Source of the DNA: Pseudobdellovibrio sp.
GTDB taxonomy: Bacteria > Bdellovibrionota > Bdellovibrionia > Bdellovibrionales > Bdellovibrionaceae
Direction: 5' to 3'
Length of the DNA: 62,860 nt
Assembly (NCBI GenBank): GCA_023701385.1
Contig: JAMPXC010000015.1
Coordinates: forward strand, 1-62,860
The first letter of the stretch is position 1. Each line of letters begins with the position of its first letter. A program made the position numbers and the translations under genes. A model generated the notes under the pieces. The model searched no databases and was not told the origin of the DNA. It saw only the letters and a program-made list of their open reading frames with translations. Of the stretch, positions 16,976 to 24,167 are shown one piece after another.

Positions 16976-19039
16976 TTATTTTAAAGCGATCAGCTGTGCG
17001 ATTAACAACGAAACAACCGACATAACTTTAATTAAGATGGCGATACCAGGACCAGATGTATCTTTGAACGGGTCACCAACAGTGTCACCGATTACGGCCG
17101 CTTTGTGAGCGTCAGAACCTTTTTTATGACCTGGTAATCCACCTTTTTCGATAAATTTCTTAGCGTTATCCCAAGCGCCACCTGCGTTCGCCATGAATAA
17201 TGACATCGCAGCACCTACAGCCATACCACCAGCTAATAAACCAGCTAAGGCTTGAGGGCCTAAGATGAAACCGCATAACACCGGAGCAACAACTGCGATC
17301 ATACCTGGTAAAATCATTTCGTATAGCGCAGCCGAAGTTGCGATATCTACGATTTTAGCCGGTTGTGGTTCAGCTTTACCTTCACGTAAACCTGGAATTT
17401 CTTTGAACTGACGAGCGATCTCAACAACGATTTTACCTGCTGCACGACCTACTGCTGTCATAGTTGTAGAACCAACTAGGAATGGAAGGATTGAACCTAA
17501 TAAAATACCGATTAATACGCCAGAAGACGTTAGGTCTAATTGCATTTTTGCTAAACCAGCAGCTTCACGAACGTGATTCACTTCCATATTGAAAGCAGAG
17601 AATAACGCCACAACTGTTAAGATAGCTGAACCGATAGCGAAACCTTTACCGATCGCTGCTGTTGTGTTCCCTACTGCATCTAATTCATCAGTGATTTCAC
17701 GAACGTTAGATGGAAGACCAGACATTTCAGAGATACCACCAGCGTTATCAGCGATAGGACCGTAAGCATCTACAGTCATTACAACTGCAGTACCAGCTAA
17801 CATACCAACGGCTGAAAGAGCGATACCGTATAAACCTAAACATTGATCAGCAACATAAGCTGCGATCACAACAACAAGTGTTGGAATTGCAACTGATTCC
17901 ATACCCACAGCTAAACCACGGATAACACCAGTACCAGCGCCTGTTTGAGCTGCTTCAGCAACTAAACGAATTGGTTTCATCGCTGTGTAGTACTCAGTGA
18001 CTAAACCGATAATGGCTCCACCGAACGCGCCTGCCGCTAAAGCCCAAGTTACGTTTTGTGTAACACCGATCGTTGGCATAAAGATAAATGAAACTACAGT
18101 TAAGATAACTGGAGGTAACATTAAAGAAGCACGTAATACAGTAGCTGGCTTAGAATTTTTCAAAGCACGAGCTAAGAAAATAACTAAGATAGAAATAACC
18201 ATACCGATAGCAGATAATACTAACGGAAGACCAACAGCCATAGCGCGAGCTGACTCTGGAGTCGCTGCTGTATCAACCATGATTTTTGGAAGATCGATAG
18301 CTGCAATTGTTAAAGCAATAGCCATTGCAGAAACGATAGCCGCAACCATTGATTCATAAATGTCTGCGCCCATACCCGCAACGTCACCCACGTTATCACC
18401 CACGTTATCAGCGATAACGCCTGGATTACGAGGATCATCTTCAGGAATATTTTCAACCACTTTACCAGCGATATCTGCACCTACGTCAGCCGCTTTAGTA
18501 TAGATACCACCACCAATACGCGCAAAAAGTGCAATTGATGAAGCACCTACTGCGAATGAGTGAAGAATTGTACCTAAGTGAGCGTCACCTTGATATTGCT
18601 TGTAAACAAGACCTAAACCGATCAAGCCAAGTGCTGCTACAGATAAACCCATAACCGCGCCGCCATCTAAAGCGACTAATAAGGCGTTACCTTTTGTAGA
18701 AGAAGCTGCAGCTTGAGTTGTACGAACGTTAGCGTAAGTAGCCGCTTTCATTCCTACGAAACCTGCTAATAAAGATAAGAAGGCACCAACGATAAACCAA
18801 ACGGCTGCGATAGTTCCTAAAGCGTACCATAAAAGTGCGCCAACAACTAAACAGTACACCGCTAAAACTTTGTACTCACGTACTAAGAAAGCCATCGCAC
18901 CTTCGCGAACGTAGCCTGCGATTCTGTTCATTGTTTCATTTCCTGATGGTTGCGCTTTCACTCTGAAATATAGAATGGCCGCAATCACTAGACCGACAAC
19001 GCCTGCAATAACTGGCGACATCAAGTAAGTTGAATTCAT
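16976..19039 (-). CDS. hppA: Membrane-bound ion-pumping pyrophosphatase, K+-dependent type
   Basis: 687 residues from ATG 19,039, chosen because AAGGAG sits about 8 nt upstream. It hydrolyses pyrophosphate and pumps H+ or Na+ across the inner membrane. About 16 transmembrane segments are present. The substrate-site signatures are visible: [19 protein letters not shown] (about 190-210), DNVGDNVGD, and near the C-terminus [14 protein letters not shown] and [14 protein letters not shown]. At the K+-dependence site the sequence is [10 protein letters not shown] (about residue 458), with Ala where K+-independent pumps have Lys. Pumping specificity (H+ versus Na+) cannot be settled by eye. Monocistronic, with a strong terminator. 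Confidence 0.96.
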
Positions 19040-19043
19040 GTAT

Positions 19044-19061
19044 GTATCTCCTTGTAGATAC
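19044..19061 (-). promoter_or_regulatory. Hairpin enclosing the hppA Shine-Dalgarno
   Basis: On the minus strand GTATCT, ACAAGG, AGATAC form a 6-bp stem whose loop and right arm contain the AAGGAG ribosome site of hppA, 4 nt from the start codon. Folding would limit translation initiation. Only the inverted repeat is observed; regulation is inferred. Confidence 0.35.
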
Positions 19062-19085
19062 ACAAAAAGTAGTGATTCCAAGGGT

Positions 19086-19472
19086 TTAAGTCAATAATTG
19101 AGCTAGAAATGCAAAGAAAAAGCCCACACTGATAGATATCCAGCCTAAAATTAGAACAATTTCCGAGTATTTGCGGCCACGCAGACACGCATCTCTTAAT
19201 TTAGGGTCAATCGGACAAGGGGCATTGCGATTTTTATAGGTAAAAATCGAGCTGATCGTTAGCATAACAACGGCAAAACTAAAAACGTAAACTTTGTTTT
19301 CTCCGACCCACGTAATTTGGGGAATCGCATGGGTCAAAGTAATCATCGATGCACCCATTCCAAGACTCACTAACAGAGCTGGCAGAGCACAACAAAGCAA
19401 AGTACTCATCGAGGTAAATAAACCTAAATATCTGATGATACCTTCTTTAAAGCTACGTTGATAGTTTTGCAT
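19086..19472 (-). CDS. MerT-like metal transport membrane protein
   Basis: 128 residues with three hydrophobic segments. The first carries a vicinal cysteine pair and proline ([11 protein letters not shown], about residues 24-34), as in MerT, and the following loop holds two more cysteines ([17 protein letters not shown], about 78-94). This is the layout of mercuric-ion type transporters that pass a soft metal through the inner membrane by Cys relay. No merA or merR is nearby, so the metal need not be mercury. It lies 17 nt after a MerP-like gene with AGGAA before its start, forming a unit with the two genes upstream. Confidence 0.72.
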
Positions 19473-19489
19473 ATAAATTCCTAATTAAA

Positions 19490-19768
19490 TTAGTTACCGA
19501 TAGTGCCTTCGTAACCAGCTTCTTTAATCGCGTCGATGATTTTTGTATCTTCTAAAGAGGCGTCTTTTTTAAGAACTAAGTGAACAAATTTTTCTTCTAA
19601 ACTTACATTTACCTTTTCAACTTCTGGCATTTTTTTAAATGTTTTCGTAAGGCCTTGGGCACAGAACGCACAAACCATACCTTTGACTTTCACATGCACT
19701 TCACCCGTAAGTGGTTTTGCAAATACTGTTGATGCTAATAACATTGTCGCGATAAATAGTTTTTTCAT
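19490..19768 (-). CDS. MerP-like periplasmic metal-binding protein (HMA domain)
   Basis: 92 residues: signal peptide (KKLFIATMLLASTVFA) followed by one heavy-metal-associated domain. The metal site reads GMVCAFCAQGL (about residues 31-41), the CxxC motif, in the expected ferredoxin-like fold (EVHVKVKGMV, then VEKVNVSLEEKFVHLVL). MerP proteins bind a soft metal ion in the periplasm and hand it to MerT. Here it lies directly upstream of the MerT-like gene. AGAGGA is 8 nt before the start. Metal identity is unknown. Confidence 0.8.
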   Translation of the reverse strand: MKKLFIATMLLASTVFAKPLTGEVHVKVKGMVCAFCAQGLTKTFKKMPEVEKVNVSLEEKFVHLVLKKDASLEDTKIIDAIKEAGYEGTIGN

Positions 19769-19782
19769 AATCTTTATCCTCT

Positions 19783-20421
19783 CTATAAATGAAACATGAA
19801 GTTAAATTGGTAATTTCCGTTTAAGCTTGCGCCTAATTCCCATAAAATATTTTTGTAGAACGTACGCATCAGGGGTGTTGTTTCCCAGTGTTCGCCATTT
19901 GTTTTTTCAAACTGCGCGATAAACCAGATATTGATATCGTTGTAATCTGCACGGAATGGCGAAAAACCTACGCGGGCGCGTGATAGCCACAAAGGGTCTT
20001 CGTCTTTAAGAGAAATATACTTTTGAAAACCAGAAACGTAGTAATCACGATCTTCCCAATCAGCGTGAAACTCACCGATCGAAGAACTTGTAAGAGTATC
20101 GTCTTTACGCTGTTGGCCGGCACCGGCACTTAAATAAATATTTCCCTGACTATCAATATTATTCCAGCGAAAAGGACGGTAATTAAGTTTTGCAAAATAA
20201 AATTCACGCGGACCTAACATACTCATCGGAGCAAATTTAAAATATTCAAAACCTGCCGAGGCTTGCGTGTGAAAAGTATAGCTCGTCATGATATTCGACA
20301 TCATTGGACTAGACTCTGTCTCTAAATCAAATCCATCTTTAAAAATAACTGGATGTGCGACAGCTTGCAGACTGGAAAAAATCATTGGTAGTAGAAGAAG
20401 TTTAATTTTATTTGTTAACAT
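19783..20421 (-). CDS. Exported, probably outer-membrane barrel-like protein of metal locus
   Basis: 212 residues with a signal peptide ending near SLQAVAHP (about residue 22). The mature part consists of alternating amphipathic strands rich in Phe, Tyr and Trp (YTFHTQASAGFEYFKF, DRDYYVSGFQKYISL) and ends in a final strand QFNFMFHL with C-terminal hydrophobic residues, which fits an outer-membrane beta-barrel. It is first in the unit before the MerP-like and MerT-like genes and divergent from an ECF sigma factor gene 49 nt away. A role as an outer-membrane metal channel or sensor is inferred. No named family recognised. Confidence 0.65.
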   Translation of the reverse strand: MLTNKIKLLLLPMIFSSLQAVAHPVIFKDGFDLETESSPMMSNIMTSYTFHTQASAGFEYFKFAPMSMLGPREFYFAKLNYRPFRWNNIDSQGNIYLSAGAGQQRKDDTLTSSSIGEFHADWEDRDYYVSGFQKYISLKDEDPLWLSRARVGFSPFRADYNDINIWFIAQFEKTNGEHWETTPLMRTFYKNILWELGASLNGNYQFNFMFHL

Positions 20422-20470
20422 TTGACGACCTACGCCCTTTCACTATCTACTAGGATCAGGATTAAAATTT

Positions 20471-20989
20471 GTGACAAATTATTTAATTGATCTTAAAAAC
20501 GCTTTAACTTCAAAAGAGCAATCCCGCTTTTTAGAGCTGTTCTATAATGAAACAGCTCACCTGGTATTTGCTTTCTGTCGCAAAAAAGGGATCACTCCGC
20601 AGGATGGCGAAGATATCGTTCAAATTGTTTATACTAAAGTATATAATAAGCGTGAGAAATATAACCCCGATTATTCGCCTTTAGCGTGGCTATTTGTCAT
20701 TACCAAATCCGAAGCCAAGGATTACTTAAAAAAATCAGCTATTTACGCTGACTATATGAAAGATTATGGATTATTCGCCGATTTGTCACAAAACCAGGCT
20801 TACGACCCTAGTAGTAAACAAGAGGGTCAAGAGCTAGATTTATCAGCCTTAAGCTCAAAAGAAAAATCAGCTTTAGAGCAACGTTATTTCGCCGAAAAAG
20901 ACTTTCGCGAAATCGCTGAAACTCTTGGTGTAACAGAAACTAACGTGCGCAAAATTATTTCGCGCGCGATTCATAAACTTAAAGGATGA
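20471..20989 (+). CDS. ECF-type RNA polymerase sigma factor
   Basis: 172 residues from GTG 20,471 with AGGA about 9 nt upstream. Region 2 covers about residues 20-90 (FYNETAHLVFAFCRKKG, then DGEDIVQIVYTKVYNK), and region 4 covers about 118-172 with the helix-turn-helix FREIAETLGVTETNVRKIISRA. This two-domain layout defines extracytoplasmic-function sigma factors, usually held by a membrane anti-sigma factor. The next gene starts 1 nt after the stop and encodes a small membrane protein, and the divergent genes encode metal-handling proteins, so control of those genes is the likely role. Confidence 0.88.
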   Translation: MTNYLIDLKNALTSKEQSRFLELFYNETAHLVFAFCRKKGITPQDGEDIVQIVYTKVYNKREKYNPDYSPLAWLFVITKSEAKDYLKKSAIYADYMKDYGLFADLSQNQAYDPSSKQEGQELDLSALSSKEKSALEQRYFAEKDFREIAETLGVTETNVRKIISRAIHKLKG

Positions 20990-20990
20990 T

Positions 20991-21467
20991 ATGGAAAATT
21001 TTGATTTAACAACCAAAAATAAAATTCTCCAAAATTTAAAGCAGGATATTTTTCCTGAGATAAATCCTTTTAAATTTTTACCCCGTTTATTTTTTATTCA
21101 TGCAGCGGCTACAGCTTTTGTGATGGCGTTTTGTCCGCAGTTTGGGCTGGGGTTATTTGCGCAAGGTCACTACGGCTTAACGAGTTTATTTATGCAGGTG
21201 TCGCATGAGTTTTGCCAAATGGCCTGTGGTGCTTTTTTAACATTAGTGAGTTTTTCGGCGATCTGGTTTCCGTTAAAAGTGACTGAAAAAGAATGGTTAA
21301 TGTCGCACAAATATATCTTTGCGGGAATTTTACTTTCGATCACATCAGGTTTTTTCTGGATGCAGGCGCCAGACATTCATTTAGCTGAATTTGCTTTATG
21401 GATTGTGGGATCTCTTGCTGCTCTGGCCTCAGCTGGTCAGCTACAGTTCCATCAAAAAAATATTTAA
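20991..21467 (+). CDS. Four-helix membrane protein, probable anti-sigma factor
   Basis: 158 residues with a cytoplasmic N-terminal segment of about 28 residues (NFDLTTKNKILQNLKQDIFP) followed by four transmembrane helices. There is a Cys in FCPQFG, and a HEFCQMACG segment in the second helix that might sense a metal or redox state. It is translationally linked to the ECF sigma gene (1 nt between stop and start), the normal place for its anti-sigma factor. The overall plan resembles NrsF/DUF1109-like anti-sigma proteins, but the sequence is too short to name a family. Function is inferred from position and topology. Confidence 0.6.
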   Translation: MENFDLTTKNKILQNLKQDIFPEINPFKFLPRLFFIHAAATAFVMAFCPQFGLGLFAQGHYGLTSLFMQVSHEFCQMACGAFLTLVSFSAIWFPLKVTEKEWLMSHKYIFAGILLSITSGFFWMQAPDIHLAEFALWIVGSLAALASAGQLQFHQKNI

Positions 21468-21483
21468 TTGCAAGTCTAACATT

Positions 21484-21828
21484 TTACTCAAGTGCAAAAT
21501 GCAGTTTTAAAGCAAGCTCAATCTCTTTTAGATTTTTTCGTGAAATTCGACCTAATTTATTTTGAATGCGCGATTTATCAATAGTTCGAACTTGTAAAAT
21601 AACAGCTTTTGATTTTTTTACCAGTCCCGAGCGATCATCTAATAACACCTCAAACGATCTAATCTGATTAACTTTTTGCGATGTTATGGGAACAACTGTA
21701 GTCAATTTAGTTAACTTATTAACCATATTGTTAGAAACAACTACAGTTGGACGAGTCTTTTGAATTTCACTTCCCTGTGTTGGATCAAGTTCAACCAGAA
21801 CAATATCTCCACGCTCGATATCATTCAT
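21484..21828 (-). CDS. mazF: MazF/PemK-type endoribonuclease toxin
   Basis: 114 residues. The start is ATG 21,828, with AGGTG 6 nt upstream, rather than a GTG at 21,837. The MazF barrel is evident: IERGDIVLVELDPTQGSE (GDIV and PxxGsE motif), then TRPTVVVSNN, TVVPITSQ and LQVRTIDKSRI, matching the conserved catalytic Arg, Thr and Ser/Thr positions. MazF cleaves mRNA at short specific sites. Its gene overlaps the antitoxin gene by 8 nt (ATGAATGA). It converges with the anti-sigma gene, 16 nt apart. Confidence 0.9.
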   Translation of the reverse strand: MNDIERGDIVLVELDPTQGSEIQKTRPTVVVSNNMVNKLTKLTTVVPITSQKVNQIRSFEVLLDDRSGLVKKSKAVILQVRTIDKSRIQNKLGRISRKNLKEIELALKLHFALE

Positions 21829-22054
21829 GCGATTCACCTAAATCAGCGTTTAACCATTCCTCATCTTCTGAGGAACTTTCATACGAAGAATATTCAGCTA
21901 TTAGTTTCTTAATAAGTTCTTCTTGAGATTCTTTTTTTGAATAGCTTCTAATAGCTTCGGCAATAAAAGAAGATTTCTCACCCGACTTAGTCTTTTTTTT
22001 AAGTATATTTACAACATCTTCTGGCAATGTGATGTTCATTCTTACTACTCCCAT
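21821..22054 (-). CDS. mazE: Ribbon-helix-helix antitoxin partner of MazF
   Basis: 77 residues. ATG 22,054 is chosen because GGAGG is 7 nt upstream and because a longer frame from 22,084 would start inside the promoter -10 box. The N-terminal half is a ribbon-helix-helix DNA-binding fold (RMNITLPEDVVNILKKKT, then SSFIAEAIRSY) and the acidic C-terminus (SYESSSEDEEWLNADLGES) should wrap and neutralise the MazF toxin. It lies directly before mazF with overlap. It should repress its own promoter. Confidence 0.85.
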   Translation of the reverse strand: MGVVRMNITLPEDVVNILKKKTKSGEKSSFIAEAIRSYSKKESQEELIKKLIAEYSSYESSSEDEEWLNADLGESHE

Positions 22055-22075
22055 AGCTGGCCTCCAATACACACC

Positions 22076-22104
22076 ATTATACACACTTTTTCATTTTATG
22101 TAAA
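22076..22104 (-). promoter_or_regulatory. Sigma-70 promoter of mazEF
   Basis: On the minus strand TTTACA (plus 22,099-22,104) and TATAAT (plus 22,076-22,081) are separated by exactly 17 nt, close to the consensus. The predicted transcript starts about 15 nt before the mazE ATG, just including its ribosome site. Confidence 0.75.
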
Positions 22105-23448: not shown

Positions 23449-23766
23449 TTAAATCCTGCTATAGAATACTTGTCCTACTCGCTGAATATGTTCAAGCAAA
23501 GCAGGATTATCAATTTGATGAAACAAAGATAAATCCATTTTATAAACCAAAAAAAGATCATCAATTTCATTTTCAACTTTAAGCATATCGCTCAAGCTCA
23601 TATCAGGTGCAAAAAGTGTTAAGTCAATGTCTGACCCAGGCTTATAATTGCCCTTAGCGCGAGAGCCATAAAGAACGGCTTTTTCAATATCTTTATGCTT
23701 CATTAAAACATGAATAATTTTATTTTGTGTGTTTTCATCAAGACCACACGTCTGTTGTGAAATCAT
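23449..23766 (-). CDS. MntA-like nucleotidyltransferase antitoxin
   Basis: 105 residues of the minimal nucleotidyltransferase fold. The active-site motif GSRAKGNYKPGSDIDL fits exactly the GSx10DxD pattern of MntA antitoxins, with a third acidic residue near KMDLSLF (about residue 78). In the characterised Shewanella pair MntA adds AMP groups to a tyrosine of its HepT toxin, which blocks the toxin. The gene overlaps the HepT-like gene by 4 nt (ATGA). Confidence 0.85.
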   Translation of the reverse strand: MISQQTCGLDENTQNKIIHVLMKHKDIEKAVLYGSRAKGNYKPGSDIDLTLFAPDMSLSDMLKVENEIDDLFLVYKMDLSLFHQIDNPALLEHIQRVGQVFYSRI

Positions 23767-24167
23767 TTAATCAAACTTTTCATCTTTTGCGAAAACTCAA
23801 CAAAACATGACACATATAATTCAAGAATATTTCGAACAATCGCGGATGCTGTGTCTTGATTATAAGTGTGCGATGTTAAATTTCGGCTTTTGATCATTTC
23901 CATCCACGTATCGCCGTGCGAAATCAAATTTTTTTGAAATGCTTCACGAGTCGTGTCTTTTGAGCCAATCAAAGACTGACCACCGCTGTATTCAATGTAA
24001 TCTTTTAAAACATTCCAAGCCAGTTCATGGGTAAACTCAAAAGCTTGTATTAATCCTTGTTTTTCAAGGTCATTCAACATGCGCTGCTGTGATAAATTAT
24101 GCGCGGCCTGCAACTGCGTTAAGGCTTTTTCAAAGTTGTTAAATCTTTGTATCCAACGAATATCCAT
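23763..24167 (-). CDS. HepT-like HEPN-domain toxin (HI0074 type)
   Basis: 134 residues, all helical, of the HEPN nucleotidyltransferase-substrate-binding family. The ribonuclease motif RNLTSHTY (about residues 95-102) is an intact Rx4HxY, whose Arg and His form the active site of HepT and whose Tyr is the AMP-accepting residue. The opening is typical of this family (QRFNNFEKALTQLQ). It is first in the pair, overlapping the antitoxin gene. An RNase toxin acting on tRNA or mRNA is predicted from the family. A gap of about 70 nt with a hairpin separates it from the DUF4258/HTH pair. Confidence 0.85.
   Translation of the reverse strand: MDIRWIQRFNNFEKALTQLQAAHNLSQQRMLNDLEKQGLIQAFEFTHELAWNVLKDYIEYSGGQSLIGSKDTTREAFQKNLISHGDTWMEMIKSRNLTSHTYNQDTASAIVRNILELYVSCFVEFSQKMKSLIK

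Follow-up and report, generated by a model that had tools for sequence, protein, structure and literature searches.

The window, the whole 62,860-nucleotide stretch of Pseudobdellovibrio sp. DNA that was analysed, contains a divergent locus of five genes, which we call T, P, B, S and A (Table 1). T, P and B lie on the minus strand and S and A on the plus strand; the starts of B and S are 49 nt apart, and 1 nt separates S from A. An open reading frame check recovered all five genes and the 49-nt gap as a sequence-only reading of this DNA had proposed. The GTG start of S (20471-20476) sits in the −35 box of the candidate B-P-T promoter on the opposite strand, so that each signal constrains the other.

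Table 1. Genes and candidate promoters of the locus (positions in the window).
Feature	Position	Strand	Description
T	19086..19472	-	MerT-like inner-membrane protein, 128 aa; C27C28 in TM1, C86 and C96 in the second loop, all invariant
P	19490..19768	-	Periplasmic HMA (MerP-like) protein, 92 aa, motif VKGMVCAFCAQG
B	19783..20421	-	Predicted 12-stranded outer-membrane barrel, 212 aa, without known family
Candidate B-P-T promoter	20448..20476	-	TGTCACAA-N15-CTAGTA
S	20471..20989	+	ECF sigma factor, 172 aa, GTG start
Candidate intragenic promoter inside S	20784..20813	+	TGTCACAA-N15-CCTAGTA, aimed at A, 178 nt before the A start
A	20991..21467	+	Four-TM putative anti-sigma factor, 158 aa; C48, C75 and C79 invariant

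Directly downstream of T, the minus strand encodes at 16976-19081 a protein of 701 aa that looks like a membrane H+-pyrophosphatase. An open reading frame of 683-690 aa adjoins B-P-T in many Bdellovibrio relatives as well, suggesting that the site may be inherited in place. Two further gene pairs on the minus strand were named by eye: a MazF/PemK-like toxin (117 aa) with a small antitoxin-like protein (87 aa) at 21484-22084, convergent with A, and a nucleotidyltransferase-like protein (105 aa) with a HEPN-like partner (134 aa) at 23449-24167. A palindrome at 19480, between T and P, looked like a chance occurrence and was dropped.

P, previously described as MerP-like, passes the Pfam threshold for HMA proteins (PF00403, 39.5 bits, cut-off 24.8), with the HMA fold and a CxxC motif whose C33 and C36 are invariant. 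The only model matched by T was MerTP, and that weakly (19.4 bits, cut-off 180); the cut-off of the MerT family PF02411 (32.9 bits) was not reached by T, for which 1 of 31 members gave E 0.058, and PF02411 had no match in the same genome. Profile comparison with true MerT by hhalign nevertheless gave E 3.9e-5, and T has the CC in TM1 and the second Cys pair of MerT, with C27, C28, C86 and C96 invariant in 31 sequences. The earlier description of T as MerT-like therefore stands as distant homology but not as membership of the MerT family.

Neither B nor A matched a Pfam or NCBIfam family, and both were modelled with AlphaFold2 from alignments made in this analysis. B was predicted to be a 12-stranded barrel (pLDDT 91.3). 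Its best VIA-align match was the BrkA autotransporter barrel, with Z 18.3 and an rmsd of 2.3 over 176 residues, and PcoB, a copper porin, scored Z 12.8; the likeness of the model to BrkA and PcoB is one of shared fold and says nothing on function. An AHPV sequence after the signal peptide of B is invariant within the order. A copper site at an N-terminal His was dropped as a general feature of B, the residue being mostly R, K or A outside the Bdellovibrionota.

The gene set is conserved. A is present in 51 and B in 46 of 100 relatives, with one copy of A in the genome of the window. Within the Bdellovibrionota, P and T follow B at 31 of 34 B loci, and S-A lies at most 2.5 kb from B at 28 of the 34, divergently in 25 cases and co-directionally as S-A-B-P-T in 3. 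Because this arrangement recurs across the order, the association of T-P-B with S-A is not chance, which upholds both the expected conservation of the five genes and the earlier proposal that a sigma factor/membrane protein pair is tied to a metal unit of the cell envelope that includes a barrel in the outer membrane. When the T alignment was used to scan named genomes, B-P-T turned up in Alpha-, Beta- and Gammaproteobacteria and in one Verrucomicrobia MAG, mostly without S-A, suggesting that B-P-T is the core and that S-A is mainly the way in which the Bdellovibrionota switch it on. A search with one Burkholderiaceae B found no plasmid copy. B-P-T, almost certainly linked to copper, is a three-gene module of wide distribution whose barrel family is uncharacterised. 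We found no description of this module, and in the Bdellovibrionota it comes with a complete circuit to probe, comprising a candidate sensor, a sigma factor, a promoter and targets.

S scored above the cut-offs of TIGR02937 (81.6 bits, cut-off 42.9), PF04542 and PF04545 and contains sigma2 and sigma4 domains only, as expected of the ECF (group IV) sigma factor it had been taken for. The HD100 sigma genes bd0743 and bd0881 are probably not counterparts of S, as neither has an anti-sigma gene downstream (PMC3464611). Judged by sequence, S also has a promoter class of its own, as ECF sigma factors do: across the order, the regions between B and S have in common TGTCACAA, followed after 15 nt by C[C/G]TA-T. 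The spacing in the B-P-T promoter of the window is one base less than that in the N15-CCTAGTA of relatives. The motif occurred at 26 sites in 8 genomes, compared with 0 for the reversed pattern, and a looser pattern gave 45 sites, compared with 7 reversed, in 15 further genomes. The sites are near the next gene and aimed at it, and the spacing from TGTCACAA to the −10 element is constant while other distances vary, including those in Bacteriovoracaceae, where copies face each other and overlap.

The −10 element also differs with the type of sigma factor present. Where a genome has class II sigma factors alone, 33 of 38 sites carry CC; where it has class I alone, CG is present at 16 of 16 (Fisher p about 1e-9, a significance overstated by the shared descent of the sites). 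One relative with both subclasses (G013) has CC sites at one cluster and CG sites at the other cluster and its further targets. Fixed spacing, placement close to and facing the next gene, the reversed-pattern counts and a −10 element that tracks the sigma subclass together argue that the motif is an ECF promoter, and the last of these leads us to infer that S itself reads TGTCACAA-N15-C[C/G]TA-T. The two subclasses lie side by side in G013 (L081, L084) and in a second relative, G024 (L097, L013), and the −10 dinucleotide at the targets is specific to each subclass.

A is probably the anti-sigma factor that holds S, since it is a conserved membrane protein encoded directly downstream of the sigma gene. 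Its AlphaFold2 model consists of an N-terminal helix and four long helices (pLDDT 90.7). Cysteines had been pointed out in this protein, and among 36 A sequences three of them, C48, C75 and C79, are invariant and H37 is nearly so; if the N-terminus is cytosolic, C48 is predicted at the end of TM1 and C75 and C79 at the start of TM2, on the periplasmic side. No homology to a known anti-sigma factor was detectable. As a possible NrsF homologue, A was rejected by both Pfam and hhalign: PF06532 matched 0 of the 36 A members, the hhalign probability was 3.9%, and the genome of the window had no PF06532 match. Fold searches gave nothing significant with Foldseek and only unrelated proteins with VIA-align (best Z 5.7).

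Class II sigma factors, to which the clade of the window belongs, have no motif site upstream of S. The site lies instead inside S, in the sigma2-sigma4 linker and 178-217 nt before A, where it encodes [L/M/V]-S-Q...P. Within S the base before TGTCACAA varies (TTG, ATG, GTG, CTG) while TGTCACAA is invariant. Across 12 representatives none of the eight −35 bases varies, whatever its codon position, and the −10 CCTA hardly does, whereas third codon positions nearby show about 50% identity. Shuffling synonymous codons produced a site in 0.7-5% of trials per gene, compared with its presence in 15 of 15 genes. Class I sigma factors mostly lack LSQ and have the site upstream of S instead. In the sigma tree, 14 class II members form one clade (100/99), and two long-branched members lie elsewhere. 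A promoter at this position would explain the otherwise odd LSQ motif.

It is quite improbable that a separate transcription factor uses TGTCACAA as its operator, instead of S reading it as a −35 element, and that the site in S is purely coding. Paired copies do face each other, palindrome-like, in several intergenic regions, and LSQ could be a protein motif. Yet the distance between copies varies while the 15-nt gap to the −10-like element is constant, that element changes with the sigma subclass, and inside S the third codon positions are fixed while the first base of the Leu codon is free. The simplest reading of the two arrangements as ECF promoters is that class I has positive autoregulation of S-A, whereas class II would make only the inhibitor on activation. 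On balance, we think it rather likely that a sigma-dependent promoter within the reading frame of a sigma gene, in its linker, drives the putative anti-sigma gene alone; that a Bdellovibrionota clade has long kept it; that it dictates LSQ and has replaced sigma autoactivation; and that the copper module it serves has a three-Cys anti-sigma factor and a barrel, each of a new family. Feedback wiring would then be coded inside the regulator's own linker, and no paper describing an anti-sigma gene driven by an intragenic promoter turned up in the searchable literature.

In the genome of the window, exact motif sites lie before the gene for a heavy-metal RND pump, which scored 806 bits against TIGR00914 (cut-off 701), and before that for a cupredoxin, which has a secreted partner of 254 aa. 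Further exact sites precede genes for secreted proteins, one of 145 aa starting AHGEDKAGPHGG and one of 63 aa. Like genes lie behind the motif in relatives, in addition to a P-type ATPase (Cu/CopA-type) with GMSCVNC and CPC motifs; in one relative (G045) the sites precede an RND pump and a Cys-rich secreted protein, and His-rich secreted proteins also have the motif upstream. One secreted family (AHGED..GPNGGxI.MPGxFHTE with a His-rich tail; L202:10220-10657 and relatives) stands behind the promoter in at least 7 genomes, belongs to no Pfam family and is likely a new periplasmic metal-binding protein. No metal gene adjoins a one-mismatch site at G000:C71:37213, which is probably a chance match. 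The RND pump gene was found at the ends of two contigs of this genome (L201:6279-6878 and L202:15247-15846, 96.5% match over 600 bases), representing either a difference between strains where the contigs break or a gene present twice.

Comparison with the neighbours of B-P-T in other bacteria bears on the metal. The 47 proteins encoded upstream of B-P-T at loci without S-A, nearly all outside the Bdellovibrionota, included CopL (11), CusF (6), CsoR/RicR-type repressors (5), cupredoxins (3) and CopA/CopB (1), and none belonged to a mercury family. The single CopB-family neighbour adjoins a multicopper oxidase, and the CusF gene overlaps the start of B by four bases in five of the six CusF cases. 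These copper families make copper, rather than mercury, the most likely ion of B-P-T. The set in the window also lacks the MerR and MerA that accompany MerT and MerP in a mer operon, neither gene adjoining it, as had been remarked from the sequence; these absences and the copper neighbours led us to reject a mercury system. The ion itself had previously been left open, and both neighbours and regulon now point to copper, not Hg.

A different soft metal (Hg, Ag, Cd or Zn), several of them, or a general thiol or envelope stress could instead be what the module answers, with the copper neighbours elsewhere reflecting a different use of B-P-T. We consider this unlikely in view of those neighbours and of the cupredoxin and Cu-type ATPase behind the same promoter, although T is a MerT homologue, the analogous SigF-NrsF system answers chromate and cadmium besides copper, and the RND pump departs from CusA. 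It falls within the CusA/CzcA family TIGR00914, but where CusA has its Met triad (M573/M623/M672 in E. coli numbering), the pump has S, S and H rather than the CusA-type Cu(I)/Ag residues, so that its metal may not be Cu(I).

Conservation of the gene set, the promoter and its regulon, the fixed intragenic site, the invariant cysteines and the copper neighbours suggest that S, A, B-P-T, the regulon and an A-only intragenic promoter probably form a copper-stress regulatory and envelope module. In the mechanism that we infer, A would inhibit S, copper would be both signal and ligand of A, and B-P-T would act in transport. A would hold S inactive at the inner membrane until periplasmic Cu(I), or a similar soft metal, bound its three-Cys site (C48, C75, C79) near the outer membrane face of the helices. 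Metal-bound A would then release S, and S-RNA polymerase would transcribe from TGTCACAA-N15-C[C/G]TA-T promoters B-P-T, the heavy-metal RND pump, the cupredoxin and the His-rich periplasmic proteins, B-P-T providing a copper carrier of the HMA type (P), the MerT-like protein of the inner membrane (T) and the barrel in the outer membrane (B). In the clade of the window, S would fire the promoter in its own gene to yield A alone, so that activation would refill the inhibitor and not S. If true, the system would tell how predatory bacteria meet metal stress.

For the role of B-P-T, we lean towards detoxification. MerP and MerT of mer systems carry Hg into the cell, and T keeps both Cys pairs, so that MerT homology suggests inward transport, whereas co-regulation with efflux suggests clearance. 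Copper uptake, with entry through the barrel and inward passage by P and T to feed cuproenzymes or a cytoplasmic sensor, is conceivable but doubtful, as the promoter is common to efflux and detoxification genes and B-P-T elsewhere adjoins regulators of copper excess.

CorE of Myxococcus xanthus senses copper via its own Cys-rich tail, whereas the conserved cysteines of the present system belong to A, a membrane protein distinct from the sigma factor. CorE is a copper-dependent ECF sigma factor (PMC3107203), and ECF/anti-sigma control of metal genes is already known from CorE, SigAb (PMC12153292) and SigF-NrsF. In Caulobacter crescentus, SigF is paired with NrsF, a multi-TM membrane anti-sigma factor with two conserved, probably periplasmic cysteines (PMC3511200), and its small regulon of envelope genes is induced by copper and also by chromate and cadmium (PMC8224329, PMC3511200). 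S-A likewise combines an ECF sigma factor, a multi-TM, Cys-containing membrane partner and an envelope regulon, and A resembles NrsF in logic. However, NrsF has six TM and two Cys, compared with four and three in A, and is not detectably homologous; the SigF promoter is GTAACC-N16-CGAA; and SigF targets DUF692/DoxX-type genes, not B-P-T. SigAb of Acinetobacter baumannii is copper-stimulated, needed for copper resistance and, similar to S, followed by anti-sigma genes (aabA, aabB), but its promoter autoregulates the operon, SigAb has few direct targets, and the available part of that report gives no link to B-P-T (PMC12153292).

New here, on sequence grounds, are the unrelated four-TM, three-Cys partner, the barrel family, the distinct promoter class and the intragenic promoter. 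A literature search that left subscription papers mostly outside its reach found these four nowhere together and nothing on copper regulation in Bdellovibrio or on transport of copper by MerT-like proteins, in agreement with the earlier statement that no exact system with this gene set has been described. Like MerT-MerP, the set pairs a periplasmic HMA protein with a small TM protein having CC in TM1 and a second Cys pair, but it differs in its copper neighbours, its outer-membrane barrel, the missing MerR and MerA and a T that falls under the MerT cut-off. True MerT genes do occur in some relatives, at separate MerR-MerT-MerP loci. Operons of this kind (L264, L265, L266, L267) have no MerA within about 1.5 kb; after them comes a protein of 123-145 aa that contains CxxC as well as a C-terminal CC and looks AhpD-like by eye. 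They may represent a mer variant without the reductase.
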